Below, in pieces: positions 19,332-59,664 of a stretch of DNA of 64,000 nt. Below the pieces are notes generated by a model. The model did no database searches, was not told where the DNA came from, and saw only the letters and a list, made by a program, of their open reading frames with translations. The translations under genes and the position numbers were made by a program. Source of the DNA: a virus; IMG/VR virus record IMGVR_UViG_3300022839_000006, positions 144,231 through 208,230 of that record; one strand, written 5' to 3'. Numbering within the stretch: the first letter of the stretch is position 1; each line of letters opens with the position of its first letter.

Positions 19332-22300
19332 TTAGGTTGTTGTCAACATCTTCTCTTTGAGATACGCTACGAACCGTTCCGCATAAAGAACCAGTCCATC
19401 ACCTACTAAAAGATGAGCATATCGCTCGTCGTACACTTCACTCATTGTTGCGCTTGGAAACACGACTGCAGGTCCTTGACTTGTTATGTCATAAAGCTCT
19501 TCGGGCAGTTTACCTTGTTGTAGAGCCTCTTGAAAATCGACATATTCAATTTCATTCGTTTCCACATCTACAATAGGGATCATTCCGTCCCTGAATATAA
19601 ATGTGGTTGTTGGCGCAAAGTTGTCCATTAACTGTTCCGTAATGTAATTTTTGAAGGTAGATACCTTGTTATTATTACAGTATACACCCTCAGCCAAGTG
19701 TTTGTCAACGTTTTGTTTTGTGGCTAACTCAACTTCGTACACTTGCTGAATGCGCAACTGCGCAGGCGGATTGAACACGCACCATTCAGGCGATCTGATA
19801 CCACCACCTGCTCCAGGGACACCTGCAACCTGATAGTCTGTTCTTTTTTCCCCAAGGTTGACGTCCATCGAGAACAAATAGCCCTTTTGGCCTGCACGTC
19901 TTGAGTAACCGCCGTTAGAAACATATTGTAGCGCTTTGTCGACCTTGTTGCTGAAATATATACCGTCACCAAGCATTCTACCAACAACGCCTGAATCAGA
20001 AGGCTTGATGACTCTGAACCCATATCTCAATATCATTGATGCTGCAACACCACCTGTACCATGGTAAGCAGGTTCTACTGTTCCATCACCAAACTTGTTT
20101 TTGCGGAAGTCGTCAAACAGAGGGTTGTCTGTTGTTCCGTCATATACGTTTAGAATCTTAGGAAACACATCGCCATGCTTTCCTGCATGATCTCTTTGAA
20201 TAATGGTTTTGTTCAGCGCATTAACGTTTATAGTATCGTTTTTTGCAATCTCCGGTTCGGGAAGAATTGTCCCTTTCCGAGCAATTGTAGCTTTTGCGCG
20301 TGCAAAGAACTGTGTATACGTCTCGCCCTTCTTTTTCTTTGATACTGCGCCTGATACAATTGCAGACAAATCAATGTCGTTGTATAAAAACAGCTGCTTT
20401 AATCTATTGTTATCGATTTTATCGAACGGTTTAATCTCTCCGCTAGAAATTTCATCTATCAAAACTTGCGAGCCGACAAGTGACATTCTAATCTTCTGTA
20501 CAACATGAGGTGCGAGCCCATCGATGATGTCATTGACATAATCTTCGACATCTGTGCCAATAGTGTCAAGAATGATTCCTGTTAACACTTCAACATATTT
20601 ACCTTTCTCGTCTTTGCGGATGCTTTTATACAGTCCTACACTCATAATGTATTTCTTCTGTGAGGATTTTGCGAATCTCATCCACTCTAATACTGTCTCT
20701 GATGTTGCACTTGAAAGAAGGTTCATGATAGTATCGCCACCCTTTGACGTATCAAAATCAAAACCGGTGTCTTTCTTTGCAACGATCAGTGACGCTTTGG
20801 CCAAAGCGTCACTGATCTTGTCTTTATCACCAGGCGCATATTTTGCGACACTTAGATTGCTGTAGAAACTGTTTCTTGATTCAAGGAAGTCTACTAACAC
20901 TTGTGTATCAAGATCCCCAACGCCGTCACGTCGAACCTTCACTCCCACTAGTGCCTCATCGTTGGGGAATTTAGCCATCATTTGATCAAGATCAATGTTA
21001 AGCACTCTAACAACTTTGACAGTTTTATCTACATTATATATACTATTTGAACCTATTAATTTGCCTATCAACGACTTTTCAAAACCTACATCTACAAGGT
21101 CCGCTGCATAGCGGTCGTGCAGCAGCTCAAAGAGCATGCCGCCGTTTTGAGGAGCCTGTGTATCATACACCTCTCCCTTTCTGAATTCTTCAAACAATTT
21201 TGGAACGATAGAAGCCTCATAGGTAGAAAACAAATCAGCTTGAATGAAGTGTTGAGCCATCTTCTCAATACGGTCCATCGTTGACTGTTTAAGTCTCGTA
21301 GTTACATCGGTAACTTTTGATCTACTGTCTCCTGATACTATAAGCAATTCTATAAAATTTGCCTGCGACGCTCCAACAGTCACTGTATCGTTGTACACAG
21401 TTGATAAGAAATCTATCGGCTGTGCAGCAACAAATTCCACCAGCATCTGGTCATAATATCTTCCATATTGGATATCACCACTAGGATACGATCGCGTTAA
21501 GCCATTAAATGTGTTTTGAATAAGCATTTTGCTTGAGATTTCCGGATCAGAAACAATGAACGATATCAATCTTTGTTTTTGTTTTTCCTGAACAGTGTTT
21601 TTGTATACATCTGATAGAAGAGAACTATAAAATTCACCTATATTGATTATACGCTTTATTAGTGGATCTTTTGCCTCTATTTCAAGTGCAGCGTTTATAA
21701 ACGCTGCAACAGATGATTTGCGATAGGACGCCATTTTACCACTACTGTATATCTGATCGACGAACATTTCAAGAAAACCAATTGGCGTATATTTAGTCTT
21801 CCGTACAGCATTAGCTTGTTTAAGCACTGGTGTAAAATCTTGGGAGGTGTCACGATCTCTAAAAGCTTCAATATAATTTTCAACGTTAGTCACAGTTTTA
21901 TATATTGCTTCAAATGCTTGGCGAGGTGCATCAGGTAAATTATCAGCATAAATCAAGGTATCTGCAAGATTGTATTTTGTTTTAACAAATTTAAGGGCCG
22001 CTGCTGCAAGTGCATCACTTTGATACATACCGTCCACGTGTATATCTACAAGGAGCTTTATGCCCTCATCAATCAATTGATCTATGTCGATGTTACTTGC
22101 AACTAATGTCTGCGCTGCCTCTCTTTCCTTCTGATCAATAGCAGCCTGAGCATCACGTGCCTTCTGATCAATAGCAGCCTGAGCATCAATCGCTTGTTGT
22201 GCTTGTTGTGCTTGTTGTGCAGCAGCTTGTTTAATCTGTTTTTGACGTTGATAATAACCCAGCTTCGGTGCTGTAGGCGCAGGAACAGCAGGGTCAACAG

Positions 22301-23051
22301 GCGCACCTGTCAGTGCCGCAAGCTTCTTCAGTTTTTGACGTTGATAATAGTTCATTGGTGGTGCAACAGCAGGTGTTGTAGTGACCTGAGCTGACGGATC
22401 AACAATTGGTGTTGGCACTGTAGGAGCTGCAGGTACCGCAGCTGTGGCCATAGGAGACACTCCAGCAGGCTGCGGTGTTATTTCTGTCAATCCAAAGAAT
22501 CTCTTGGCATATTTTTGATAGTCACCACCACCATCAACTGTATTGACTCTCTTCTTCAATTGAACAGCAAATCTGGAAACATCAACAGCCGTTCCGCCAC
22601 CACCTACGAAATCATCAAATACTTGACGCATCTTTGCATCTTTAATATTCAATCGGAAACTTGGAACCATCCCTCTAAGCCATCCTGCAACAACGTTCGA
22701 GTCAATAGAATCGATTTGGCCTGATTTCAACTTGAAAAGGAATTTTGTTATTTCGTTTGCTGTGATGTCCTGCTTGAAGAATCCTGCCTCATGAGCCAAC
22801 TTCACGGACAATGAAATGTCATGGTTATCATCGCCGATTGATCCAAGACGTACCTGTTTGTCTTTGCGCAAGAACTTGATAATTGTTCCACGTTGGGTAG
22901 GGCTCGTTGCGTTAATCATCCCCAGCATTCCGAGAAAGTTAAACATGAAAGCAGCAGCAACTCGATCTTTATCTGCGAGTAACGCAGCTCTTTCTGCATC
23001 GTTAGAGTAAAGAGAATTTTCCCCAAGAAAAGATTTGAAGTTTTTGGTCAT
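19332..23051 (-). CDS. Large PARP-like ADP-ribosyltransferase
   Basis: A 1239-aa protein with a PARP-type catalytic domain near residues 970-1110. It has the donor-loop motif YHGTGGVAASMILRYGFRV (His997), GDGIYFSNKVDKALQYV (Tyr1032) and SPEWCVFNPPAQLRI (Glu1089), matching the H-Y-E triad of poly- and mono-ADP-ribosyltransferases. The first 200 residues are a folded unknown domain. Next comes a Pro/Ala/Gln-rich linker with two NYYQRQK-like repeats and an AIDQKAR/AIDQKER repeat, then about 650 unknown residues. A late promoter 39 bp upstream suggests a late, perhaps virion-carried protein, as T4 Alt is. It differs from Alt (R-S-E) in its triad. Target unknown. Confidence 0.82.
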   Translation of the reverse strand: MTKNFKSFLGENSLYSNDAERAALLADKDRVAAAFMFNFLGMLGMINATSPTQRGTIIKFLRKDKQVRLGSIGDDNHDISLSVKLAHEAGFFKQDITANEITKFLFKLKSGQIDSIDSNVVAGWLRGMVPSFRLNIKDAKMRQVFDDFVGGGGTAVDVSRFAVQLKKRVNTVDGGGDYQKYAKRFFGLTEITPQPAGVSPMATAAVPAAPTVPTPIVDPSAQVTTTPAVAPPMNYYQRQKLKKLAALTGAPVDPAVPAPTAPKLGYYQRQKQIKQAAAQQAQQAQQAIDAQAAIDQKARDAQAAIDQKEREAAQTLVASNIDIDQLIDEGIKLLVDIHVDGMYQSDALAAAALKFVKTKYNLADTLIYADNLPDAPRQAFEAIYKTVTNVENYIEAFRDRDTSQDFTPVLKQANAVRKTKYTPIGFLEMFVDQIYSSGKMASYRKSSVAAFINAALEIEAKDPLIKRIINIGEFYSSLLSDVYKNTVQEKQKQRLISFIVSDPEISSKMLIQNTFNGLTRSYPSGDIQYGRYYDQMLVEFVAAQPIDFLSTVYNDTVTVGASQANFIELLIVSGDSRSKVTDVTTRLKQSTMDRIEKMAQHFIQADLFSTYEASIVPKLFEEFRKGEVYDTQAPQNGGMLFELLHDRYAADLVDVGFEKSLIGKLIGSNSIYNVDKTVKVVRVLNIDLDQMMAKFPNDEALVGVKVRRDGVGDLDTQVLVDFLESRNSFYSNLSVAKYAPGDKDKISDALAKASLIVAKKDTGFDFDTSKGGDTIMNLLSSATSETVLEWMRFAKSSQKKYIMSVGLYKSIRKDEKGKYVEVLTGIILDTIGTDVEDYVNDIIDGLAPHVVQKIRMSLVGSQVLIDEISSGEIKPFDKIDNNRLKQLFLYNDIDLSAIVSGAVSKKKKGETYTQFFARAKATIARKGTILPEPEIAKNDTINVNALNKTIIQRDHAGKHGDVFPKILNVYDGTTDNPLFDDFRKNKFGDGTVEPAYHGTGGVAASMILRYGFRVIKPSDSGVVGRMLGDGIYFSNKVDKALQYVSNGGYSRRAGQKGYLFSMDVNLGEKRTDYQVAGVPGAGGGIRSPEWCVFNPPAQLRIQQVYEVELATKQNVDKHLAEGVYCNNNKVSTFKNYITEQLMDNFAPTTTFIFRDGMIPIVDVETNEIEYVDFQEALQQGKLPEELYDITSQGPAVVFPSATMSEVYDERYAHLLVGDGLVLYAERFVAYLKEKMLTTT

Positions 23052-23089
23052 TGTGCACGGTATCCTTGTGAAAGCTGGTGTGTCTTGCT

Positions 23090-23097
23090 TATTTATC
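23090..23097 (-). promoter_or_regulatory. Late promoter (GATAAATA) for the PARP-like gene
   Basis: Minus strand GATAAATA followed by AGC, 39 bp before the ATG at 23051. Confidence 0.6.
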
Positions 23098-23120
23098 AAA
23101 ACACTCCAGCTTCGACTCTT

Positions 23121-28740: not shown

Positions 28741-28935
28741 ATGAAATGTGCAATCATCACTTCCGTCCTGCTTCTATCAGCTTGTTCTTCGCCATCGATT
28801 ACAGACCTCGATAAACGCCTTCGTGCCGAGGAAGATTTCCGCTCACACCAAATGTATCTCGAAGAACTGTACACTAAACATGACCCTGAGTTTGTAGATG
28901 ACTGCATCTACCACAATCTCAGTTGTGAGTTTTGA
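28741..28935 (+). CDS. Small lipoprotein
   Basis: 64 aa: MKCAIITSVLLLSACSSPSI has a signal peptide and the lipobox LSAC, so the mature protein would start at Cys15 and be lipid-anchored. The rest is acidic and helical (LDKRLRAEEDFRSHQMYLEE), ending NLSCEF. Size and form fit an outer-membrane spanin subunit or a superinfection-exclusion lipoprotein. No partner inner-membrane spanin is seen next to it. Confidence 0.72.
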   Translation: MKCAIITSVLLLSACSSPSITDLDKRLRAEEDFRSHQMYLEELYTKHDPEFVDDCIYHNLSCEF

Positions 28936-28993
28936 AACGACACGTGCTAGAAATAACAGCAAAAGAAGACATATTACAAAAGAGGGCGTGGAA

Positions 28994-30235
28994 ATGAAAA
29001 AATATCTTGTAGGTGGTGCAGTTCGCGACATGCAAATGGGTATTGAGCCTAAAGATCTAGATTATGTTGTAGTAGGTGCTACACATGAACAAATGATTGC
29101 TAGTGGGTTCGAGCACGTTGGTGCCGATTTCCCCGTGTTTCTACATCCTGTTACGAGTGATGAGTATGCGCTGGCACGACGTGAAAAGAAGACAGGCGTA
29201 GGATACGTCGGATTCACGTCTGAATTTGGTGTGGGTGTGACCCTGGAGGAGGATCTAGGGAGGAGAGACATTACTGTTAACAGCATGGCATATGACATTG
29301 ATGAAGGACTAATCGATCCGTTCAACGGTCAAGACGATGTTGCTAACAAAGTTCTTCGTCATACCGGCACTGCCTTTGTTGAAGATCCTGTTCGTGTTCT
29401 CCGGATCGCACGACTTCGCGCACGATTTGGCTCGGAGTGGACAGTTGCACCTGAGACAAAGGTTCTAATTTATCGTATGGCCAAATCGGGCATTCTCAAT
29501 GAGCTGCAAGCAGATCGTGTGTGGAAAGAAATGAGCCGTGCACTGATGGAGCCAAATCCACAGCTTTTCTTTGACACACTACTTGAGTGTGATGCGCTTC
29601 ATGTTATATTTCCTGAAATCTACAAACTGCTGACCGCACTGGAAAGTAACCGTTGGCACCCAGAGAAAACAGCGCTAGCACATACAATGCTTGTGCTCGA
29701 GCAATCTGCAAGGTTTGATTTTCCTCTTGATGTACGCTTTGCGTGTCTCGTTCATGACATTGGAAAGGGACTCACACGTTTTGAGAATCTTCCAAGTCAC
29801 TTTGGCCATGATGTCAATGGGGTGGCTCTTGTAGAAGCGTTTGCAAACCGAATTTCAGTTCCTGCAAAAATTCGTGACCACGCGAAGAAGGCAACACGCT
29901 ACCATATGAGCATGCATAAACTCAGTACGTTGAACGACAAGACGTTTGTTAAGATGTTTGATGCTATGAGTGTTAAGAACGACCCACGCAGCGTAGAGGT
30001 TTTACTTTGCGTTGGTATTTGCGACGAGAGAGGACGTCTTGGCTCTGAAAACAATTCTATTGACCACCTCAACGATCTGACCACGTTGTTTGAAGCATAT
30101 GACAGCGTGAAGTTTACTAATGTTTTCCCAAACGGTCAAACAAACGTCAACAAGATCAAAGACGGAATGTTCAAGGCGAGAATCCAAGCGATTAAATCAG
30201 CCAGAGCCTCTATCCGATCTGATTGTAAATTATAA
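28994..30235 (+). CDS. cca: CCA-adding tRNA nucleotidyltransferase
   Basis: Adds or repairs the 3' CCA of tRNAs. The 413-aa protein starts MKKYLVGGAVRDMQMGIEPK with the GGxVRD motif, then DLDYVVVGAT (catalytic D-x-D), EDLGRRDITVNSMAYD, and DPVRVLRIARLRARFG. The C-terminal half has an HD domain (HDIGKG near residue 253), as in E. coli Cca. The start at 28994 follows GAGG. Phage copies are rare. A role in maturing or repairing the unusual tRNAs of this phage is likely, since some lack an encoded CCA. Confidence 0.94.
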   Translation: MKKYLVGGAVRDMQMGIEPKDLDYVVVGATHEQMIASGFEHVGADFPVFLHPVTSDEYALARREKKTGVGYVGFTSEFGVGVTLEEDLGRRDITVNSMAYDIDEGLIDPFNGQDDVANKVLRHTGTAFVEDPVRVLRIARLRARFGSEWTVAPETKVLIYRMAKSGILNELQADRVWKEMSRALMEPNPQLFFDTLLECDALHVIFPEIYKLLTALESNRWHPEKTALAHTMLVLEQSARFDFPLDVRFACLVHDIGKGLTRFENLPSHFGHDVNGVALVEAFANRISVPAKIRDHAKKATRYHMSMHKLSTLNDKTFVKMFDAMSVKNDPRSVEVLLCVGICDERGRLGSENNSIDHLNDLTTLFEAYDSVKFTNVFPNGQTNVNKIKDGMFKARIQAIKSARASIRSDCKL

Positions 30236-40134: not shown

Positions 40135-41025
40135 ATGTCGTCCCGTGCACAGCTTATGAAGCAAAAAGGATTGATCAGTCCTCCAAAATGGTTGACACCA
40201 AACATCCACTATGAAACCATTGCAGGCTCACAATCATATGGAATCAACTCAGACGATTCAGACATGGATATTGTCGGTTTTTGTATTCCTCCCAAAGAGG
40301 ATGTGTTTCCTCACCTCGCAGGCATTATCCCAGGGTTTGGAACACAAAGAGACAAGTTCAATGTGTGGCAACAACATCATGTAACAGACAAAGAAACACG
40401 ACAGGAATACGATTTTGCGATCTACTCTATTGTGTCCTATATGTCACTTGCAATGGACAACAATCCGAACATTCTCGATTCGCTGTTCACGCCTCAACGG
40501 TGTGTGCTGTTCTGTACCACTGTCGCACAGCTTGTTCGTGACAATAGAAAATCGTTCTTGCATAAAGGAAGCTATCAGAAGTTTAGAGGATATATGTTCA
40601 GCCAACTGCACAAAATTGGCACAAAGGCAAACTCTGCTAATGAGAAAAGAGCAGCAAACATTGCCAAGTTTGGTTTTTGTACAAAATTTGCAACACATAC
40701 AATACGTCTCGGACTGCAATGCGAACAGATTCTTGTCGAGCACGATTTGGACATTGAATGTAATCGAGAAGTGCTTAAATCTGTTCGTCGTGGCGAATGG
40801 TCTTATGAAAGAATCAAAGAGTGGGCAACGCAGAAGGAACGACACCTTGATGACTTATATCAGAAGTCGACACTTCAGCAGGGCCCAGACGAGCAAGCAA
40901 TCAAAGAATTGTTGATGAGCTGTCTCGAGCAACATTATGGCTCTCTTAGCACAGCGGTCAAGCGTGAAGTCCCTTTAGATCGCATGGTCAACGAGCTTCA
41001 AGCGGTCATCGACAAGTATAGTTAA
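40135..41025 (+). CDS. RlaP-like nucleotidyltransferase
   Basis: 296 aa with a polymerase-beta-type nucleotidyltransferase motif GSQSYGINSDDSDMDIVGF near residue 31 (GS..YG..SxxSDxD), the form seen in RlaP (RNA-ligase-associated) nucleotidyltransferases. The C-terminal part is helical (SYQKFRGYMFSQLHKIGTKA). The family is linked by gene neighbourhood to RNA ligases and RNA repair; the reaction is not firmly established. AAGGAG lies 7 nt upstream. Confidence 0.78.
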   Translation: MSSRAQLMKQKGLISPPKWLTPNIHYETIAGSQSYGINSDDSDMDIVGFCIPPKEDVFPHLAGIIPGFGTQRDKFNVWQQHHVTDKETRQEYDFAIYSIVSYMSLAMDNNPNILDSLFTPQRCVLFCTTVAQLVRDNRKSFLHKGSYQKFRGYMFSQLHKIGTKANSANEKRAANIAKFGFCTKFATHTIRLGLQCEQILVEHDLDIECNREVLKSVRRGEWSYERIKEWATQKERHLDDLYQKSTLQQGPDEQAIKELLMSCLEQHYGSLSTAVKREVPLDRMVNELQAVIDKYS

Positions 41026-43624: not shown

Positions 43625-44076
43625 GAACGTATCAGATAATAACACACTCTTTGAAACCAACTACAAACGTTGTTAGGTTGAAAGATGATTAAGTATGGAT
43701 AGTATCCTGTAAACCTTAATTGAAATTCTTTCTGTTCTCTACTGCATGTTAGGTATAGTCTACTTGAAAGGTTCTGATTAGTCATTAGGTTACCAAAGTG
43801 GATTAACCTGATAGGAAGCAATCTTTGGACGTGCAGTGGAAAACAGAATAACGTTTAACAACAAAAAAATTCCAGCCTTGGTTAATGCAATGTCTCAGTT
43901 AAAAGCTGTTGTAAAGTGAAACACTACTTGGTAAACTCCCAGGATAGGTCAGAAAGCCAAAACCAACTTTAGGTCAAATTGCCCAAGTGATAGAATGTAT
44001 TTAAAATTAGTAAATTAAAACACGGTAATGCATTGTGCATCTAAGTCGCCATCCGGTAGAGCCAACCACAACCATT
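43625..44076 (+). other. 450-bp leader with degenerate tRNA-like pieces
   Basis: No gene seen. It contains a hairpin AGGTTA/TAACCT near 43783-43809. Around 43921-43995, CACTACTTGG and CCAAGTG enclose a degenerate D-loop-like GGTAAACTCCCAGGA. A second copy of the element CTAAGTCGCC lies at 44041. It looks like transcribed, decayed or processed tRNA-derived sequence. Confidence 0.5.
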
Positions 44077-44147
44077 CCAATGTAGAAGAACTGGTAAACT
44101 CACCAGACGCGAAAGCACTGTAGGTTCGAGTCCTACCATTGGAGCCA
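44077..44147 (+). other. Leu-type tRNA-like gene lacking an anticodon arm
   Basis: TCCAATG pairs perfectly with CATTGGA, followed by G-CCA. The T-arm GTAGG-TTCGAGT-CCTAC is perfect. The D region (GAAGAACTGGTAAACTC) and the variable region (CGCGAAAGCACTG) are those of a class II tRNA. The roughly 17 nt that should form the anticodon arm are missing between them. Confidence 0.6.
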
Positions 44148-44198
44148 AAATTCAATAATATATATTGACACGAAAAGTTTAACACAGAACATTATATT

Positions 44199-44230
44199 AA
44201 GAAGTAATAATCGTGGTCCTTTCGTCTAAT
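44199..44230 (+). repeat. 32-bp direct repeat, copy 1
   Basis: AAGAAGTAATAATCGTGG and the following 14 bases recur at 45057-45088 with one mismatch. The repeat carries the first 16 or so bases of a tRNA (GGTCCTTTCGTCTAAT). Confidence 0.85.
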
Positions 44231-44237
44231 TAATAAC

Positions 44238-44363
44238 GGACCATTAGCTCAGTTGGTTAGAGCAGCGGACTTTGGACAGAGGATTTTAAGTCCTGTGAAG
44301 TGCGAATCTTCTATGTCAACAGTAATCCGCGTGTCCTAGGTTCGAATCCTAGATGGTTCACCA
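44238..44363 (+). tRNA. tRNA-Gln(TTG) with a 49-nt insert in the anticodon loop
   Basis: Acceptor GGACCAT/ATGGTTC, D-stem GCTC/GAGC, anticodon stem GCGGA/TCCGC, T-loop TTCGAAT and CCA are all present. After CTTTG (positions 32-36) the sequence runs 49 nt (44275-44323) before AA and TCCGC. The insert folds by itself: outer GACA/TGTC and an inner T-arm-like GAAG-TGCGAAT-CTTC. Without the insert the loop is CTTTGAA. The insert lies at the place of archaeal and eukaryotic tRNA introns (36/37 or 37/38). Confidence 0.75.
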
Positions 44364-44412
44364 ATAATTGATGTGGAGGAGGTTGAGATACTTTTTGTCA
44401 ATACCAAATAAC

Positions 44413-44499
44413 GGAAGATGATTTAATCTGGTGATTAAGACTGATTGCTAATCAAATCGTGGAGAAATCCATGGGGTTCAATTCCTCCTTCTTCCGCCA
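44413..44499 (+). tRNA. tRNA-Ser(GCT)
   Basis: Class II tRNA with a long variable arm (TCGTGGAGAAATCCATG), anticodon loop centred on GCT, acceptor GGAAGA/TCTTCC, and G-CCA encoded. Confidence 0.85.
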
Positions 44500-44518
44500 A
44501 TAACAAAGTATATTTTGC

Positions 44519-44641
44519 TCTTGTTTAGCTCAGTTGGTAGAGCGCCTGACTGTGGATACTAAAGGTAAATTGTTCAGTTCGATTCTGAAAGTATCAAAAG
44601 TAATCAGGTTGTCGCAGGTTCGAGCCCTGCAACAAGAGCCA
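44519..44641 (+). tRNA. tRNA-His(GTG) with a 47-nt insert in the anticodon loop
   Basis: Acceptor TCTTGTT/AACAAGA with G73 and CCA; D-stem GCTC/GAGC; anticodon stem CCTGA/TCAGG; T-stem GCAGG/CCTGC. After CTGTG come 47 nt (44555-44601), then AA-TCAGG. The insert starts GATAC, ends GTATC-AAAAGT, and contains a perfect T-arm (TTCAG-TTCGATT-CTGAA). The insert has the same place and plan as in the Gln gene 160 bp upstream. No G-1 is encoded. Confidence 0.75.
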
Positions 44642-44660
44642 AATATACTTGCTAACAAAT

Positions 44661-44735
44661 GGGGTCATAGCTCAGTGGGAGAGCAGTTGCTTTGCAAGCA
44701 TCAGGTCCTCGGTTCAAGTCCGAGTGACTCCACCA
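44661..44735 (+). tRNA. tRNA-Ala(TGC)
   Basis: Complete cloverleaf, acceptor GGGGTCA/TGACTCC, anticodon loop TTTGCAA, CCA encoded. Confidence 0.9.
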
Positions 44736-44745
44736 AATAACAAAT

Positions 44746-44820
44746 GCGGGCATAGCTCAGAGGCAGAGCACTAGGTTTCCAACCTGGGTGTCGGGATTTC
44801 GAAATTCCCTGTCCGCTCCA
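44746..44820 (+). tRNA. tRNA-Gly(TCC), copy 1
   Basis: Acceptor GCGGGCA/TGTCCGC, anticodon loop TTTCCAA, T-CCA encoded. A second TCC tRNA is at 46119. Confidence 0.88.
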
Positions 44821-44828
44821 AACAATGA

Positions 44829-44903
44829 TCACTGTCCGTCTATGGGTTAGGACACTACTGCGGAGTCAGTGGAGAGAAAGGTTCAAATCCTTTACAGTAA
44901 CAA
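44829..44903 (+). other. Degenerate tRNA-like sequence, no CCA
   Basis: TCACTGT nearly pairs with ACAGTAA. D-stem GTC/GAC and T-arm AAAGG-TTCAAAT-CCTTT are good. The anticodon region folds as CACT-ACT-GCGG-AGT-C-AGTG and does not present a 7-nt loop. A shortened copy lies at 47061. Confidence 0.5.
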
Positions 44904-44910
44904 TAAACAA

Positions 44911-44987
44911 GGTTCTGTGGCTCAACTGGATAGAGCAACTCCCTTCGAAGGAGTAGGTTATAGGTTCGAATCCTATCAGAATCACCA
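44911..44987 (+). tRNA. tRNA-Arg(TCG)
   Basis: Acceptor GGTTCTG/CAGAATC, anticodon stem ACTCC/GGAGT with loop CTTCGAA, A-CCA encoded. Confidence 0.9.
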
Positions 44988-45017
44988 ATAAGGCATACGG
45001 GAAAGCAAGAAAGACTG

Positions 45018-45046
45018 TTGACGAGTTCTGTAGTTTGTAGTATATT
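45018..45046 (+). promoter_or_regulatory. Early-type promoter inside the tRNA array
   Basis: AGACTGTTGACGAG, then TATATT with a 17-bp spacer. The segment around the -35 is repeated before 47324 and 48242. Confidence 0.75.
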
Positions 45047-45056
45047 AGTGTTAATA

Positions 45057-45088
45057 AGAAGTTATAATCGTGGTCCTTTCGTCTAATG
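45057..45088 (+). repeat. 32-bp direct repeat, copy 2
   Basis: Second copy of the 44199-44230 repeat (one mismatch), directly downstream of a promoter. Confidence 0.85.
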
Positions 45089-45113
45089 GGTTAAGATCCT
45101 ATCTAATTGATAG
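45072..45113 (+). other. 5' tRNA fragment (D-half plus short hairpin)
   Basis: GGTCCTTTCGTCTAATGG looks like the 5' half of an Asp/Glu-type tRNA, then CTATC-TAATT-GATAG forms a hairpin. No T-arm or 3' acceptor follows. A tRNA remnant or half. Confidence 0.5.
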
Positions 45114-45139
45114 TGTAGTAAAAGTAAGAACATAATCGT

Positions 45140-45216
45140 GGGCCAGTAGCTCAATTGGTTTGAGCAATCCCCTCATAAGGGAGAGGTTGTAGGTTCAAGT
45201 CCTACCTGGCCTACCA
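45140..45216 (+). tRNA. tRNA with CAT anticodon (Ile2 or Met)
   Basis: Acceptor GGGCCAG/CTGGCCT, anticodon loop CTCATAA, A-CCA encoded. CAT is read as Met, or as Ile(AUA) after lysidine modification. The phage TilS-like protein (32123) makes tRNA-Ile2 the likelier identity, as in T4. Confidence 0.85.
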
Positions 45217-45249
45217 TTATGTTCTTACATTAAAATTTAGGAGTTTCTT

Positions 45250-45936
45250 ATGAGTCAAGTTTGGGATGCGCTTGTCGACATTCAAGACAGGTTAGTTCAA
45301 AGATTTGAGTCTAGTGGACATGAGGTGTTTGAAGAAGGCATGACCCAGTTTAACAAACCAAACTGGGTCAACAGAGTGTGGACCAGTGAAAACTACCGTC
45401 GTGCACATGTTGATGTGGTAGATGTTAGAGAGACAAAAGGTCTTTGGATGATGCATTGTTGCATATTCCCACACCTACACAACAACGGTCCTATTTTTGG
45501 TCTTGATGTAATTGCAGGCAAAAATAAAATTACTGGATTTTTCCATGATTATTCTGCGAGTGTAGATGTTGAACATGAAATGATTATCAACTTTGGCGAA
45601 GAAGTTGACAGTTTAGAATGGCGAAAGAAACGCGATCTACCAGATTGGGCAAAAGCTATTTTTAGCCCGCATATGATTGCAGCAGGTAATATAAATATTA
45701 AAGAAGAGATTGATCAGATTGTAGAAGTCAGTTGTAAAAGCATAGACGAATATCTTTTGAGTATAGGAAAAACTAACAACACGTCTGATACAATTTTAGT
45801 GAAAGAAGCGCAAAATCGCTACGCATATTATCAGAAGCAAAACCCCCACACTCCTAAGACAATGGTTAGTTTGGGACTGTCCGAAGAAGATGTGAAGACA
45901 TTCATACAAGAATGTCTTTTTCCAGAAATTAAATAA
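45250..45936 (+). CDS. pcyX: Ferredoxin-dependent bilin reductase (PcyX-like)
   Basis: Reduces biliverdin, probably to phycoerythrobilin, with electrons from ferredoxin. 228 aa: MTQFNKPNWVNRVWTSENYR near residue 31, then the family core HCCIFPHLHNNGPIFGLDVI near 76 with the conserved Asp, and ITGFFHDYSASVD near 98. It is shorter and more diverged than cyanobacterial PcyA and matches the PcyX type described from marine metagenomic phage DNA. It lies within the tRNA array, 33 bp after a tRNA gene, with AGGAG near the ATG. The substrate would come from the heme oxygenase at 59092. Confidence 0.83.
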   Translation: MSQVWDALVDIQDRLVQRFESSGHEVFEEGMTQFNKPNWVNRVWTSENYRRAHVDVVDVRETKGLWMMHCCIFPHLHNNGPIFGLDVIAGKNKITGFFHDYSASVDVEHEMIINFGEEVDSLEWRKKRDLPDWAKAIFSPHMIAAGNINIKEEIDQIVEVSCKSIDEYLLSIGKTNNTSDTILVKEAQNRYAYYQKQNPHTPKTMVSLGLSEEDVKTFIQECLFPEIK

Positions 45937-46016
45937 CACGTTGACGGATACTAATAACTATGCAGGATTTTGGCATCTGAATACAGATGAAATTTGTGGT
46001 AACGGTTCAAAGAATT

Positions 46017-46085
46017 GTAGGAATTCCATCTAATCATACGCGGAGAGTTTGACCTAACTCGTTGATGCGATTAAGGAATTCCTAC
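46017..46085 (+). other. Long RNA hairpin after pcyX
   Basis: GTAGGAATTCC (46017-46027) and GGAATTCCTAC (46075-46085) pair perfectly, with an inner TAATC/GATTA. A structured 69-nt element, not followed by U. The rest of 45937-46118 holds no gene I can see, apart from a TTGACG box at 45945 without a good -10. Confidence 0.6.
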
Positions 46086-46118
46086 CTGCTAGAGAAATTG
46101 GTCCTCTTTAGACAGTTT

Positions 46119-46192
46119 GCGGCATTGGTATAGGGTATGTGCCTTGGTTTTCCAAACCAAAGAGGTGGGTTAAATTCCCACATGCCGCTCCA
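46119..46192 (+). tRNA. tRNA-Gly(TCC), copy 2
   Basis: Acceptor GCGGCAT/ATGCCGC, anticodon stem TTGGT/ACCAA with loop TTTCCAA, T-CCA encoded. The T-loop is TTAAATT. Confidence 0.85.
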
Positions 46193-46304
46193 AACAACAA
46201 CCGAGTCATTTGGCTTTAAACCTGTCGAACATATTATGGACTATCTACCATATATTGCTTGTATGCCTACATGGTAAATTATAGGCGCTATTTTAAACTA
46301 ATAC

Positions 46305-46379
46305 GCTGATGTGGCCGAATGGTAAGGCAACTGATTTGTAATCAGTAGATTGGGAGTTCGATTCTCTCCATCAGCACCA
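46305..46379 (+). tRNA. tRNA-Thr(TGT)
   Basis: Acceptor GCTGATG/CATCAGC, anticodon loop TTTGTAA, A-CCA encoded. The 112 bp before it (46193-46304) hold nothing I recognise. Confidence 0.9.
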
Positions 46380-46423
46380 AAAATTAAGAAACTAATGATG
46401 TGTATTCACATGATAGTAGTAAT

Positions 46424-46498
46424 GCGGGATTAGCTCAATGGTGGAGCAGTGGTGTTACATACCGAAGGTTGTTAGTTCAAGTCTAACATTCCGTACCA
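46424..46498 (+). tRNA. tRNA-Val(TAC)
   Basis: Acceptor GCGGGAT/ATTCCGT with wobble pairs, anticodon loop GTTACAT, A-CCA encoded. The anticodon stem has one mismatch. Confidence 0.82.
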
Positions 46499-46503
46499 AA
46501 CAA

Positions 46504-46568
46504 TGTCGTCTTAGCTCAGGTGGTTACGAACCAGAGTGTCCGGAGTTAGAACTTTCGTGGCAGCACCA
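46504..46568 (+). pseudogene. Degenerate tRNA remnant
   Basis: TGTCGTCTTAGCTCAGGTGG starts as a tRNA, but the anticodon and T-arms are broken within 65 nt. It ends GCA-CCA. Confidence 0.5.
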
Positions 46569-46609
46569 CTATTCAATAAACTCACGTGCGTAAATTAGCG
46601 AGTTTGTTG

Positions 46610-46638
46610 TTGACTATCTGTTCTAGATGTACTAATAT
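46610..46638 (+). promoter_or_regulatory. Early-type promoter
   Basis: GTTGACT, 17-bp spacer, TAATAT, directly before a decayed reading frame. Confidence 0.7.
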
Positions 46639-46866
46639 GAATTATAAACAAATTGAAGATGCTTAGTATGATAATTATCACTGGATACAAGATCTGAAAG
46701 AGAGCATCGGAAAGAAACTGACATACAAGGAAACTTCGTTGTTTGGCAACGAATATAAAGATGGAGAGTTCGTGGGTGCTCACCCCCTGCAGTGACCGGA
46801 CTACCTGGTCGTGAATTCCTTACAACGTTCACAATGGAAAATCGTGTGATTGTTGAGGTAAGCTAA
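46637..46866 (+). pseudogene. Decayed small protein gene
   Basis: From ATG 46637 the frame reads MNYKQIEDA, stop (TAG), YDNYHWIQDLKESIGKKLTY, GNEYKDGEFVGAHPLQ, stop (TGA), PDYLVV. A frame shift then leads to FTMENRVIVEVS and a stop at 46866. The stretches are protein-like and a promoter is present, so this looks like a recently broken gene. Identity unknown. Confidence 0.6.
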
Positions 46867-46879
46867 AAAGAATATATTT

Positions 46880-46964
46880 GGGGCCGTGGTGGAATTGGTA
46901 GACACATCACGTTTAGGTCGTGACGCCGCAAGGTATGAGAGTTCGAGTCTCTCTGGCCCCACCA
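46880..46964 (+). tRNA. tRNA-Leu(TAG)
   Basis: Class II; acceptor GGGGCCG/TGGCCCC, anticodon stem TCACG/CGTGA with loop TTTAGGT, A-CCA encoded. Confidence 0.92.
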
Positions 46965-46969
46965 AATAC

Positions 46970-47056
46970 GGAAGCTTAATGGCACAGGAGTGTCACCCGG
47001 TCTTGAAAACCGGTGGTACCGCAAGGTATGGGGATCAAGACCTCAGGCTTCCGCCA
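46970..47056 (+). tRNA. tRNA-Ser(TGA)
   Basis: Class II; acceptor GGAAGCT/GGCTTCC, anticodon stem CCGGT/ACCGG with loop CTTGAAA, long variable arm, G-CCA encoded. Confidence 0.92.
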
Positions 47057-47060
47057 ATGA

Positions 47061-47100
47061 TCACTGTTCGTCCGTGGGTTCAGACCCTTTGTAGTAATAA
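47061..47100 (+). pseudogene. Shortened copy of the 44829 tRNA-like sequence
   Basis: TGATCACTGTTCGTCCGTGG and TAATAATAAACAAGG match 44826-44911, but the anticodon and T-arm part is deleted. Part of a duplicated block. Confidence 0.6.
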
Positions 47101-47107
47101 TAAACAA

Positions 47108-47180
47108 GGTTCTGTAGCTCAACTGGATAGAGCAAAAGTAAGGGAGTAGGTTATAGGTTCGAATCCTACCTAGCCTACCA
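47108..47180 (+). pseudogene. Chimeric tRNA without an anticodon arm
   Basis: The 5' part (GGTTCTGTAGCTCAACTGG) matches tRNA-Arg(TCG) at 44911. The 3' part (TCCTACCTAGCCTACCATTA) matches the CAT tRNA at 45140 and its flank. Between them AAAAGTAAGGGAGTAGG replaces the anticodon arm. A product of recombination between array members. Confidence 0.65.
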
Positions 47181-47323
47181 TTATGCTCTTAAAGTCAGAG
47201 ACGAAACACAAGTGACGAGTTAACTAACTCTTCTAATTTCCTTGCCAATAAACCACTGTATAGTTGGACCATCTCTCACTAACCACGAATGTGCGTTGTG
47301 TTAAAGTTGTGCGAGAAAGACCG

Positions 47324-47352
47324 TTGACGAGTTGTATGGTTTGTTGTATATG
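47324..47352 (+). promoter_or_regulatory. Early-type promoter
   Basis: GAAAGACCGTTGACGAG, 17-bp spacer, TATATG, 30 bp before the 75-aa gene; near copy of the promoter at 45018. Confidence 0.75.
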
Positions 47353-47381
47353 CAATGTAACAGATGACAAAGGACATTATC

Positions 47382-47609
47382 ATGTTTCTCACACACCAAA
47401 TGACAAAATCAACCCCAATGGCAGAAAATGTGACAGTAAACGGAATTAAAAATTGCGGCTTGAGAGTGGGCGATGTTATCAAATCCAACGATGCTGCTTA
47501 CTTCCGGGTTGAAAGTTTTGTTTTTACTGAGAATATGATTGTAGTGGAGACAATTGACGGAGGACACATGAGGATTTCAGGTTCCAATAAAATTGATCTG
47601 ATATGCTAG
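47382..47609 (+). CDS. Hypothetical 75-aa protein in the tRNA array
   Basis: MFLTHQMTKSTPMAENVTVN, then LRVGDVIKSNDAAYFRVESF and a beta-rich end. AAGGA lies 8 nt upstream of ATG 47382, better than the in-frame ATG at 47364. Unrecognised. Confidence 0.6.
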   Translation: MFLTHQMTKSTPMAENVTVNGIKNCGLRVGDVIKSNDAAYFRVESFVFTENMIVVETIDGGHMRISGSNKIDLIC

Positions 47610-47796
47610 TTAATTAGTTTCAAACAAACACCGCCGCTCACTGGTTTATGTGATGAACTCACAAGGTAAAACTATTATGACTCATGATTTTACTGGACCC
47701 CAATCCGAGTAAATGAGATCGCCGATCAAGGCTCGAATGCTGTAGAGTTCTACAGGCACGCATAACTACAGTACTTTTATCAAGGCAATTTTTGAT

Positions 47797-47873
47797 GGAT
47801 CCTTAGCTCAGTAGGATAGAGCATCGAACTTCTAATTCGAGGGTCCCCAGTTCGAATCTGGGAGGGTCCACCA
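47797..47873 (+). tRNA. tRNA-Arg(TCT)
   Basis: Acceptor GGATCCT/AGGGTCC with one wobble, anticodon stem TCGAA/TTCGA with loop CTTCTAA, A-CCA encoded. The preceding 47610-47796 holds only an 11-codon ORF and nothing else I can name. Confidence 0.9.
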
Positions 47874-48092
47874 CAAATTGCCCTTTACAATTCGCTACGC
47901 GTTAGAACAAGAAGAGCATCTCGTGATTTCGTACGACCCAATATGAGCGAATCTAGCATCAAGGGTTGGCGTGACAAGCAGTCACGCCAACCCTTCTTCA
48001 TGTCTAGAGATCTTATAACTTCAGAGACGACGAGGAAAAGGTTATATCTCTGTGAAAGTGTAGTATGTTAGTTTCATCGAGCATTAGTTTTT

Positions 48093-48150
48093 GGTGCTTC
48101 TGTAGCACAATGGGGACAGTGCTACCGCCTTATGAGCGGTAGGTTGCACC
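48093..48150 (+). other. Ile(TAT)-like tRNA lacking a T-arm
   Basis: GGTGC pairs with GCACC. A 7-bp D-stem (GTAGCAC/GTGCTAC) is followed by anticodon stem ACCGC/GCGGT with loop CTTATGA (TAT, Ile). Where the T-arm and 3' acceptor should be, the sequence passes into an HNH reading frame. Probably a tRNA truncated by a homing-nuclease insertion. Confidence 0.55.
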
Positions 48151-48217
48151 TGGATATTATGAGTGTGATCACATTGTTCCTAGATCACTTGGTGGACATA
48201 CAACATTGAAAATTTAG
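48143..48217 (+). pseudogene. HNH endonuclease remnant fused to the tRNA end
   Basis: The frame GYYECDHIVPRSLGGHTTLK then a stop is the core of an HNH nuclease (ECDHIVPxSxGG). The rest of the gene is absent. It abuts the truncated Ile-type tRNA. Confidence 0.7.
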
Positions 48218-48241
48218 TAAATTTAACGGCAAGAAAGACTG

Positions 48242-48270
48242 TTGACACACACCACCAAAACACATAATAT
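48242..48270 (+). promoter_or_regulatory. Early-type promoter
   Basis: AGACTGTTGACAC, 17-bp spacer, TAATAT; precedes the tRNA-like genes at 48319 and 48435. Confidence 0.75.
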
Positions 48271-48318
48271 CAGTTTAAGAAACAAGACACGAACAAGTAC
48301 AAAAGAGTGACGTTATGT

Positions 48319-48397
48319 GCCCAAGTATCGGAACCGTCTTCTAAACGGTAGTACCGTAATTGGATCGATGGGGGTTCGAATCCCTCCTTGGGCACCA
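48319..48397 (+). other. Arg(TCT)-like tRNA with no normal D-arm
   Basis: Acceptor GCCCAAG/CTTGGGC, A-CCA and T-arm GGGGG-TTCGAAT-CCCTC are good, and ACCGT-CTTCTAA-ACGGT is a perfect anticodon arm (TCT). Only 10 nt (TATCGGA region) stand where the D-arm should be, and about 20 nt replace the variable loop. CGG/CCG could pair around the anticodon arm. Confidence 0.55.
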
Positions 48398-48434
48398 AAG
48401 GTCACTTTTTGGTACTTGATTGTATTAACACAAT

Positions 48435-48556
48435 GCCCATTTGGCGGAATGGTAGACGCCTGAGACTTCTACGATGGTTTTAAAATTGTTTGGGACCATC
48501 GCTAAAAATCTCATGTCCTTAGTGGCGTACCGGTTCGAGTCCGGTAATGGGTACCA
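48435..48556 (+). tRNA. Leu-type tRNA with a 36-nt insert in the anticodon loop
   Basis: Class II body of Leu type (D-arm GGCGGAATGGTAGACGCC, long variable arm), acceptor GCCCATT/AATGGGT, A-CCA encoded. Anticodon stem TGAGA/TCTCA encloses 43 nt instead of 7, with a perfect CGATGG/CCATCG stem flanked by CTA repeats. Removing 36 nt can leave CTTAAAA (TAA, Leu), or CTTCTAA (TCT) if cut at the 37/38 position. Confidence 0.68.
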
Positions 48557-48568
48557 GAATAAACAGAT

Positions 48569-48626
48569 TGCGGGATGGAGCATTCCAGTAACTCGTCAGG
48601 TCGACAACCAAGTCTAGGAGACTCGC
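48569..48626 (+). pseudogene. Initiator-tRNA-like remnant
   Basis: TGCGGGATGGAGCATTCCAG and TAACTCGTCAGG follow the 5' half of initiator tRNA-fMet, but the anticodon loop reads TCGACAA and the T-arm is missing. Confidence 0.5.
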
Positions 48627-48815
48627 TTAACAAATTGTCTTTAACCATCCGAAAAGGAAATTCCTGAATGTTTACAGGGCATGTCGATAATAGCTGGCAG
48701 AAGGTATGGAGACAGATGCTGCACGGCCGTGCAACATAACCAGAACTTCAATTATTGTGACTGTTTGACGAAAGCGGCCCACATCAGTGAATGTGCCACG
48801 CCAAGTTGGTAAAAC

Positions 48816-49082
48816 CACGTTCTTCGATACTCTTACAAATCCAAATTCAATCTTGACAACAAATGTAAATTTGGCCGTGGCGACGAGAATGTACTGACAG
48901 GAGACCAGTTTAAAAATTACAATTACAACAAAAGAGGTCAACACAGATCGTTATCAGCTCTTTTGATTGACGAACATTCGTCCTTGCAGAGTAATTTGAG
49001 CGCGATGGGCATCCAAGAGATGTTCGGATATGGTGTGACATTGGAGAAGAATTCCTTTGTGTTTGGTCTATCCACAAGGTAA
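48816..49082 (+). pseudogene. Remnant reading frame without a start codon
   Basis: An open frame to TAA at 49082 contains CKFGRGDENVLTGDQFKN, RGQHRSLSALLIDEHSSLQS and MGIQEMFGYGVTLEKNSF. It is protein-like but has no usable start; stops lie just upstream. Probably the end of a lost gene. The sequence from 48627 to 48815 holds nothing I recognise. Confidence 0.5.
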
Positions 49083-49105
49083 CATTCGATCTTAGAAATA
49101 ATTAC

Positions 49106-49180
49106 GCCCCTGTAACTCAGTTGGTCGAGCGTCTGGCCACTAATCAGACTGTCGTAAGTTCGAACCCCGCAAGAGGAGCA
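49106..49180 (+). pseudogene. Degenerate tRNA
   Basis: GCCCCTGTAACTCAGTTGG, anticodon stem TCTGG/TCAGA, loop CCACTAA without the invariant U33, broken T-stem and no complete CCA. Confidence 0.55.
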
Positions 49181-49209
49181 ATCTTTTTATTATGACACGA
49201 AGATATCTC

Positions 49210-49238
49210 TTGACGTCACTTACTTTAAAGGCTACAAA
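49210..49238 (+). promoter_or_regulatory. Early-type promoter
   Basis: CTTGACG, 17-bp spacer, TACAAA, 37 bp before the 95-aa gene. Confidence 0.6.
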
Positions 49239-49274
49239 GAATGAGTAAGAAGAAATTAAACGAGAGACACGACA

Positions 49275-49562
49275 ATGAAAATAGGCACACAGATCAACGA
49301 ACTGATGAAAGCACAAGGCTTTGACCACGCCGCTTACGGACGCGTTTCGAGGTACAGCACCAAGGTTGGTCTCCTAATGCACTTGTGGGCCTACACTTCT
49401 GAACACAAGAGAGTTGCTGTGAACCGTAACGAAGATGGCACTTACCACATCGATACAAACCCGACACCCGATAACTGTGCTCCTTGCATCGTTCAAAACA
49501 ACATCGCCGAAGAAGTTCTTTTTGAAACATTCGAAGCTGAAATGAGTTTGTTGGCAGCGTAA
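49275..49562 (+). CDS. Hypothetical 95-aa protein
   Basis: MKIGTQINELMKAQGFDHAA; the middle has TSEHKRVAVNRNEDGTYHID, and the end is acidic. GAGA lies upstream. Unrecognised, with its own promoter. Confidence 0.62.
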   Translation: MKIGTQINELMKAQGFDHAAYGRVSRYSTKVGLLMHLWAYTSEHKRVAVNRNEDGTYHIDTNPTPDNCAPCIVQNNIAEEVLFETFEAEMSLLAA

Positions 49563-50188: not shown

Positions 50189-50701
50189 ATGAAAAAATGT
50201 TATGTCATGGTGGGTGTTCCTGCCAGTGGAAAATCAACATTTGTGAAAAATGTCATTTCTGCTGATCCGGATTCGTACTTTGTATATAGCACTGATCAGT
50301 TTATTGAAGATGCTGCTACTCATTTCAATTCAACGTACAATGAAATGTTCGAGAATAATATCAAGGGGGCAACTGCCTCGATGAATCAGATGTTGGAAGA
50401 AGCGGTTGCTGATGAACGTCAGTGGATTATCTGGGACCAGACAAATCTAGGCATCAAGAAACGGAAGTCAATCATCAACAAGATGAAATCCGTGGGTTAT
50501 TCTGTTGAGTGTGTTAGTTTTACACCTCCAGAAACAGAAAATGAACGTGCTGAATGGCACCGACGTCTAGGGTCTCGTCCAGGTAAGACTATCCCAGACC
50601 ATATTCTAAATAGCATGATGAAAAACTATCAGAAGCCAGAATTGTCAGAGGGGTTCGACGACATCACGACGTATGATATGTTTGGCACTGTGATCACGTG
50701 A
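50189..50701 (+). CDS. Polynucleotide-kinase-like P-loop kinase
   Basis: 170 aa: MVGVPASGKSTFVKNVI (Walker A) near residue 7, STDQFIEDA (acidic pair near 34), WIIWDQTNLGIKKRKSII near 86, and a C-terminal IPDHILNSMMKNYQKPE that recalls T4 Pnk (VPIDVLRSMYKSM). It corresponds to the 5'-kinase domain of T4 polynucleotide kinase without the 3'-phosphatase. A role in RNA 5'-end repair is inferred, and it would fit the tRNA-rich neighbourhood. Confidence 0.8.
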   Translation: MKKCYVMVGVPASGKSTFVKNVISADPDSYFVYSTDQFIEDAATHFNSTYNEMFENNIKGATASMNQMLEEAVADERQWIIWDQTNLGIKKRKSIINKMKSVGYSVECVSFTPPETENERAEWHRRLGSRPGKTIPDHILNSMMKNYQKPELSEGFDDITTYDMFGTVIT

Positions 50702-59091: not shown

Positions 59092-59664
59092 ATGTCATTA
59101 AAAGAGCTGACGTGGGAAAATCACAAAAAGGTCGAGAGAACTGTTTTTGTGAAACGCCTTCTCAAAAAACATCTTTCACAACACCAATATTATGTATATC
59201 TTTGTAACCTACACCACGTGTACGTACATCTTGAAGGATGTGCGAGACAAGTAGGTGTGCTCGAAGGCATTGAAGACATTTCAAGAGCTTCCAAGATGAA
59301 CGACGACATGTTGGAGATGGAGAGCTCAAATGCTTCGTTTGTAGTTCCTACAATGTGTAAAGCTACATACGCTTACATCGACCATTTAAACGCCATCAAA
59401 GAGGATTACGATTCCCTTTTAGCTCATGTTTATGTCAGACACATGGGCGATCTGTCTGGTGGCCAAATTATCAAAAAATACGTGCCAGGACCTTCGACAC
59501 ATTATGAATTTGACTGTGAGGTAGATGACTTGAAAGCTAGAGTGAGAGAAAAATTACATGATGGTCTTGCAACTGAAGCTAACCTGTGCTTTGAATTTGT
59601 CTACAAAGTTTTTGATGAAATTGAAGTGGTGTTTGCTGACATGGAATCGCCGACCAAACCATAA
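59092..59664 (+). CDS. ho: Heme oxygenase
   Basis: Opens heme to biliverdin, CO and iron. 190 aa: LTWENHKKVERTVFVKRLLK at the N-terminus (the heme-ligand His region), CNLHHVYVHLEG, YVRHMGDLSGGQIIKKYVPG near residue 121 (distal-helix glycines), and FVYKVFDEIEVVF near the end. It should supply biliverdin to the PcyX-like reductase 13 kb upstream. AGGAG lies 7 nt upstream. Confidence 0.92.
   Translation: MSLKELTWENHKKVERTVFVKRLLKKHLSQHQYYVYLCNLHHVYVHLEGCARQVGVLEGIEDISRASKMNDDMLEMESSNASFVVPTMCKATYAYIDHLNAIKEDYDSLLAHVYVRHMGDLSGGQIIKKYVPGPSTHYEFDCEVDDLKARVREKLHDGLATEANLCFEFVYKVFDEIEVVFADMESPTKP

Follow-up and report, generated by a model that had tools for sequence, protein, structure and literature searches.

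This locus raises the question of what a short hairpin does inside the anticodon loop of an otherwise intact tRNA gene in a large phage, and by what route, if any, it leaves the RNA. The gene is part of a 208,230-bp virus record, whose final 64 kb form the stretch of 64,000 nucleotides that is referred to here as the window. The locus consists of the following features:

48435..48556, + strand: interrupted tRNA-Leu(UAA) gene with encoded CCA; joined exons called Leu(taa) by ARAGORN and matched by the tRNA-Leu of RHph_TM30
48469..48504, + strand: 36-nt insert (probable intron) between U34 and A35; homologous 36-nt insert in locus L599
48472..48501, + strand: 13-bp insert hairpin with loop AUUG, arms 48472-48484 and 48489-48501

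The Rfam tRNA model matched positions 48435-48553 with 42.5 bits, while plain ARAGORN made no call on the interrupted gene. In agreement with the initial annotation, which had described a Leu-type tRNA with a 36-nt insert flanked by CTA, the anticodon stem TGAGA (48461-48465)/TCTCA (48509-48513) encloses 43 nt, and the insert within them starts and ends with CTA. Excision of 48469-48504 leaves the loop CUUAAAA, which is that of Leu(UAA), and ARAGORN called the joined 86-nt sequence Leu(taa) and made no call on the unspliced one. The joined sequence is 87.4% identical over 100% of its length (E = 3e-19) to an uninterrupted tRNA-Leu(TAA) of Rhizobium phage RHph_TM30, whose loop reads GACTTAAAATC. 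This uninterrupted loop, together with the normal Leu loop formed on joining, therefore places the insert at U34^A35. Both states of the site were found, empty in RHph_TM30 and filled with 36 nt in L599. A loop reading TCT, which had been considered beside TAA, is mechanically possible and was rejected, being at odds with the Leu body and with the homologue; TAA agrees with the RHph_TM30 loop and with ARAGORN. The gene shares two features of small phage tRNA introns of the Lak type, an insert between otherwise intact exons and boundaries set by an intron-less homologue, here RHph_TM30 Leu(TAA).

The insert is predicted to fold into an unbroken 13-bp helix with three G.U pairs, an AUUG loop and 3-nt tails. 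The pairing CGATGG/CCATCG reported earlier holds, although its length of 6 bp does not, since it forms part of this longer helix. The helix is far more stable than expected by chance (z = -5.3; none of 500 dinucleotide shuffles was equally stable), and the entire 122-nt transcript has a z-score of -3.05. A disrupted, decaying tRNA gene or an assembly artefact might give a similar picture, and several degenerate tRNA copies (47108-47177, 48096-48165) do lie nearby. However, the outer stems of the Leu gene are whole (acceptor 7/7, T 5/5, anticodon 5/5), and homologous inserts with covarying stems are found in other phages, which makes decay or artefact very improbable. We conclude that the insert is real, conserved and no chance fold, and that it is very probably an intron, that is, removed from the RNA.

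The Leu gene belongs to a tRNA array at about 44.0-49.3 kb of the window. The Rfam model detected 15 tRNA genes above threshold in the window, plain ARAGORN 11, and ARAGORN with introns allowed 14. In three array genes (44238-44363, 44519-44641 and 48435-48556) the anticodon loop is interrupted, in the first two by a different kind of insert:

44238..44363, + strand: interrupted tRNA-Lys(UUU) gene, identified by Rfam, intron-allowing ARAGORN and joined exons
44274..44322, + strand: 49-nt tRNA-like (T-arm) insert of the Lys gene at 35^36, matched by model R1
44519..44641, + strand: interrupted tRNA-Asn(GUU) gene, identified by Rfam, ARAGORN, joined exons and homologues
44554..44600, + strand: 47-nt tRNA-like (T-arm) insert of the Asn gene at 35^36; homologous insert in phage Atu_ph07

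ARAGORN read the joined exons of the three genes as Leu(taa), Lys(ttt) and Asn(gtt), and joining at 35^36 produces the loops CUUUUAA (Lys) and CUGUUAA (Asn); the labels Gln and His given initially to the Lys and Asn genes therefore have to be replaced. Empty homologues exist here as well. For Asn, the exons in the window match tRNA-Asn genes of OLIVR5 and RHph_TM30, which have the same loop and no insert, and the Lys gene is empty in Phosso and interrupted in Atu_ph07. Model R1, which describes a T-arm with T-loop and an outer helix at the 5' edge, matched the Asn and Lys inserts (44545-44608 and 44265-44330) and gave no match to the Leu insert. The array thus holds more than one insert type, as had been proposed from the missing T-arm core of the Leu insert. 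The further proposal that all inserts occupy the same place did not stand: the Leu insert is located at 34^35 and the Lys and Asn inserts at 35^36, so the sites are not exactly the same.

The array also contains degenerate or partial tRNA copies at 47108-47177 (25.8 bits) and 48096-48165 (23.9 bits), both under the Rfam threshold, and at 44213-44237 and 45067-45130; two partial copies begin with ggtcctttcgtctaat. Other genes of the window include a ferredoxin-dependent bilin reductase (PF05996) inside the array (45250-45936) and a heme oxygenase (PF01126) downstream of it (59092-59664), a possible phage bilin pathway. A 1255-aa ORF at 19332-23099 has a PARP-like catalytic domain near its C-terminus.

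The Leu insert has relatives in other viruses. In IMG/VR, genes for Leu(UAA), Asn and Tyr carry hairpin-type inserts. One of these loci, L599, is a Leu gene with a 36-nt insert that has the same ends (YTACG...CGCTA) and a stem that is changed yet still pairs. A dedicated scan, whose pattern itself required GACT upstream, returned the related form TACGGAACATCT-loop-GGGTGTTC at 11 loci, all 11 within tRNA anticodon loops (eight Leu, two read as Asn, one Tyr). The Asn and Tyr inserts are also at 34^35 when read in register with the Leu members, and ARAGORN called these joins Asn(gtt) and Tyr(gta). Across an alignment of 12 members, the 5' boundary GACT(T/G)^N(T/C)(A/G)C is kept, and AUCU/GGGU is kept in ten, that is, in all but the window and L599, whose stem register is shifted by two. 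The window insert nevertheless has the family features, namely the GACTT^YTAC boundary, a long helix, a 3' tail of 3-4 nt and the 34^35 site. Since members occur in Leu, Asn and Tyr genes at the same point, the same small element must have entered different tRNA genes there. Ile and Arg labels first given to six hairpin inserts were replaced by Asn or Lys fits. L070, L176 and L191 would fit Asn (cut at 34^35; U1-A72 and G73, which we take to be Asn identity signs), and L192, L032 and L210 fit Lys. ARAGORN takes L070 as Asn, or as Ile at another cut, and a search with its joined body returned mixed Asn and Ile annotations, so that for this insert Asn is what we infer.

Phage introns and the U34^A35 site of Leu(UAA) are both classic for group I introns, and the insert with its flanks could in principle be a very small ribozyme that removes itself. 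That the hairpin family keeps sequence besides pairing (AUCU/GGGU with U.G pairs) would suit such a ribozyme. Its size would not: inserts measure 26-57 nt and are longer only where whole tRNAs are nested, which is far below any known splicing ribozyme. The 36-nt Leu insert shows neither a group I core of more than 200 nt nor an Rfam match to one, no Rfam intron family was detected at E<=1 in 44000-49300, and neighbouring sites carry insert types that look unrelated. We therefore regard self-splicing as quite unlikely.

Pattern scans of IMG/VR gave an overview of these inserts. The Leu(UAA) pattern returned 21 loci, one of which (L600) is an artefact; an earlier Leu pattern had yielded, among the matches listed, mostly other tRNA-like things. 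Counting the window and leaving out L600, there are 14 distinct Leu inserts at U34^A35, with L596, L608 and L609 differing from one another by one or two bases. The window, L238, L598, L599, L602 and L607 are of hairpin type; L307, the L596 group, L597 and L603 are of T-arm type, L597 and L603 with an arm loop GGCAGCA instead of the T-loop. L601 and L604 are of other types; L604 and the Asn insert L016 look alike, each being 41 nt long and containing GGTGGATTG, and perhaps represent a third type. When close relatives of the window Leu 5' exon were sought, two loci came up, both an unrelated uninterrupted Leu gene. An Asn/Lys pattern with 33-63 extra nt found 14 loci, 13 of which are interrupted tRNAs; the other, L014, was rejected as a tandem-tRNA artefact. 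Among the matches listed for the early and broader patterns, at least 46 distinct candidate loops were counted, 24 with a T-arm-like core (including L151, an artefact), while among at least 120 listed matches to the general pattern most were other tRNA-like things. A long-gap pattern for whole nested tRNAs identified one of 120 loci (L516), two further loops with paired outer stems being tandem tRNAs. Outside viruses, where each species of bacteria or archaea was represented by one genome, a scan revealed three T-arm inserts in intact tRNAs among at least 115 loci listed (L337, L356 and L384). These are on three contigs of one Armatimonadetes MAG (LacPavin_0818_WC50_MAG_59_12), which may represent misbinned phage; the remaining listed loci were judged to be tandem tRNAs, archaeal introns or unclear.

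Two other sets of elements came up in the scans. Many viral contigs (L214-L332) have Leu-like tRNA bodies with a long centre that lacks an anticodon stem, often with the acceptor stem AGTCAGG/CCTGACT. In addition, tRNA-like bodies with enlarged anticodon loops starting with AT (L092, L104, L105, L111, L114, L118 and others) lack the UAA 3' exon and form a class apart.

The T-arm class is found in Asn, Lys, Thr, Arg, Ile and Leu genes of IMG/VR. We analysed 31 distinct inserts, which had been picked for having a T-arm, so that the T-arm itself is not independent evidence; the outer helix was no criterion. In 29 of the 31, the insert parses into an outer helix beginning 0-1 nt past the 5' exon, a linker usually with GG, a T-arm with a 7-nt loop and a tail of 1-7 nt, as did only 55 of 15,500 shuffled inserts. 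L014, L151 and L600 were dropped as tandem artefacts and L187 for an ambiguous cut at a contig end. A MAFFT alignment of 29 inserts (A1, with L356 and L307 left out) had 88.8% of cells paired compared with 51.8% in column shuffles, and a covariation score of 0.94 compared with 0.21. At each of the six outer-helix pairs both partners vary among the inserts. G53, T54, C56, A58 and C61 of the T-loop are invariant (tRNA numbering as used in this analysis).

The ends of these inserts recall those of mature tRNAs. Exactly 15 nt follow the closing C of the T-arm in 21 of 35 inserts, the rest having 12-18; in a mature tRNA, A76 is spaced in the same way from C61. Three more Leu inserts (L596, L597 and L603) also have 15 nt after this C. 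NCCA stands exactly at the exon boundary in five of 38 inserts (L015, L307, L471, L597 and L603; chance p ~3e-4 at 1/64 each), and L024, which is nearly identical to L015, has GCCA at its end. Two inserts are entire tRNA-like molecules: the 71-nt insert L471 in an Asn gene, found via model R1, has a 7-bp acceptor stem and ends in TCCA, and L516 is an 81-nt insert in a Thr gene. The intron ends of this class thus mostly correspond to tRNA positions 1 and 76, and with the T-arm and the nested tRNAs the class looks like tRNAs within tRNAs at several stages of reduction. In a further tRNA, which has a long variable arm (L473 in G004), a T-arm insert would leave on joining a loop that reads GTT.

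Small introns in the anticodon loop are typical of archaea, and single strands of 3-4 nt flank the hairpins, as a bulge-helix-bulge intron of archaeal or eukaryal type, cut by a splicing endonuclease, might have. However, a 4-bp central helix with cuts in 3-nt bulges was present in none of 31 T-arm and none of 10 hairpin inserts, compared with 6.5% and 5.1% of the respective shuffled inserts, and an intron of this type is hardly credible here.

The insert might also stay in place, and the RNA, without decoding, could counter the anticodon nucleases of the host, either as a decoy or as a tRNA mimic that resists cleavage. The insert would indeed hide the anticodon loop, and attack on this loop is described as a common anti-phage defence in the accessible part of a jumbo-phage survey (PMC7824862). 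However, joining yields perfect Leu, Lys and Asn loops, and the fixed sites and anticodons preserved across isotypes would be needless in a non-decoding RNA. Retention as a decoy is unlikely for these reasons.

We favour removal of the small Leu(UAA) intron of the hairpin family by cutting and ligation with T4-type enzymes, a reading to which we assign a probability of roughly one half. The genes to which it refers are the following:

50189..50701, + strand: homologue of the T4 polynucleotide kinase 5'-kinase domain (PDB 1ly1, E = 4e-6; phrog_505; Pfam AAA_33)
40135..41025, + strand: putative RlaP-family RNA-repair nucleotidyltransferase (PF10127, E = 1.1e-17)
28898..30235, + strand: putative CCA-adding-type tRNA nucleotidyltransferase (PF01743/PF12627/PF01966)
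L143:1324-1932 and 2313-2870 (G000:C1, ~62.7-64.2 kb, outside the window): two ORFs, the halves of an Rnl1

The Leu transcript would fold into a tRNA whose anticodon arm is extended to a considerable length, both insert ends would be cut by nucleases, and the exons would be held together by the acceptor, T and anticodon stems. Rnl1 could then seal U34 to A35, giving a normal Leu(UAA) tRNA, assisted by the phage polynucleotide kinase if the ends need healing; the T4 Pnk-like kinase gene directly after the tRNA array encodes a candidate end-healing enzyme. For the T-arm class, here the Lys and Asn inserts, the match of insert ends to mature tRNA ends makes host RNase P a natural candidate for the 5' cut. 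RNase P cleaves acceptor/T-arm minihelices, producing an upstream 3'-OH and a 5'-phosphate, and would so suit the 5' end of these inserts. Some RNase Z enzymes are known to cut after CCA; as a bacterial step, a 3' cut after NCCA is unusual, which counts against cutting and ligation, as does the fact that no nuclease can be named for the hairpin class.

Homologues of both Rnl1 and Pnkp are encoded in the same genome, with Rnl1 split in two ORFs. The ligase (PF09511, E = 9.9e-24) is of T4 Rnl1 type, its ORFs matching residues 52-193 and 217-319 of T4 RNA ligase 1, and the split makes its activity uncertain. The Rnl1 Pfam match likewise stops at model position 156 in G001 and G007, so the split may be conserved. 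Rfam contained no match to a group I intron between the halves, and the genome has a weak second ligase match.

Rnl1 was present in 19 of 30 insert-bearing records and in seven of 30 comparison records (Fisher p = 0.0038; the p-values given here ignore relatedness, contigs may be incomplete, and one comparison record, G031, was later found to hold a nested tRNA). Either T4-type ligase family occurred in 22 of 30 versus 17 of 30 records of all sizes (p = 0.28), and in 15 of 15 versus seven of 14 records of at least 150 kb (p = 0.002). RtcB, as an alternative ligase, was detected in none of the insert-bearing and three of the comparison records. Eleven insert-bearing records lack Rnl1 and eight lack both families at a threshold of E 0.001; in six of these eight the insert belongs to a single family, which means that related phages are counted too often. 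The association is suggestive, giving support and no proof, and is not universal. Moreover, T4-type ligases are already explained by the repair of tRNAs cut by host nucleases.

A wider scheme, which we consider tentative, is that large phages bring protein-dependent tRNA splicing into bacteria, in which the enzymes that form tRNA ends release the intron, RNase P cutting at position 1 and a second cut following position 76, and a T4-type ligase joins the exons. The introns would be tRNAs, tRNA relics and worn-down hairpins, and the inserts tiny mobile introns that move between tRNA genes. If so, the ligase and kinase of counter-defence repair would double as splicing enzymes.

A direct test of insert removal is possible in a cultured phage, Agrobacterium phage Atu_ph07. 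It has a homologue of the window Asn insert (85% over 79% of the query), in which the T-arm TTCAG-TTCGATT-CTGAA is identical and the outer helix is AGAGGC/GCCTCT instead of GATACT/AGTATC. A second interrupted gene is tRNA-Lys (L476), and the record carries no tRNA annotation at either gene. In the accessible text of its description, Atu_ph07 is reported to be without tRNA-Asn (PMC6102473); the interrupted Asn gene indicates that phage tRNA repertoires are under-counted.

The nearest known counterparts are the tRNA introns of Lak megaphages, called "enigmatic" in the accessible portion of that report, where one Thr(TGT) intron "may encode a possible tRNA" (Devoto et al, 2019; PMC6784885). They too are small inserts in phage tRNA genes, and the Thr(TGT) intron resembles L516 (Thr) and L471 (Asn). 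That portion deals with one phage group and describes no structure classes or mechanism, whereas here hairpin and T-arm classes, covariation, tRNA-end geometry and fixed sites are seen in many phages. The literature searched, mostly open-access and excluding most preprints and subscription papers, contained no removal mechanism for such introns and no reports of them beyond Lak. In the main text of "Clades of huge phages" (PMC7162821) no word starts with "intron", and the jumbo-phage survey, in its accessible part, does not mention tRNA introns and attributes RNA ligases, kinases and RlaP to the repair of tRNAs cut by host defence (PMC7824862).

Other known systems each share part of the picture. 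Archaeal tRNA introns of bulge-helix-bulge type are also short and in the anticodon loop; however, the motif is missing here, the usual site is 37^38 and those seen here are 34^35 or 35^36, and the context is a phage. In cyanobacteria and plastids, tRNA-Leu(UAA) has group I introns at U34^A35, as is the case for the window insert; they are self-splicing ribozymes of more than 200 nt, compared with 36 nt and one hairpin. The intervening sequences in 23S rRNA of bacteria, which are excised by RNase III, are likewise hairpins in a structured RNA that are removed without a ribozyme; the rRNA stays fragmented, whereas a tRNA would need religation. T4 Pnkp and Rnl1 repair tRNA cut by anticodon nucleases, and here, too, ligase and kinase genes are present and the exons would be held like broken tRNA halves, although the break would be programmed by the intron and not made by host defence. 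In the common view, the introns in tRNA genes of bacteria and their phages are essentially all ribozymes. Compared with these, widespread inserts of 26-81 nt, of no known ribozyme kind, at fixed anticodon-loop sites and partly built from tRNA, imply either that bacteria have a tRNA splicing pathway not described so far or that the RNA-repair enzymes of phages serve a second function.
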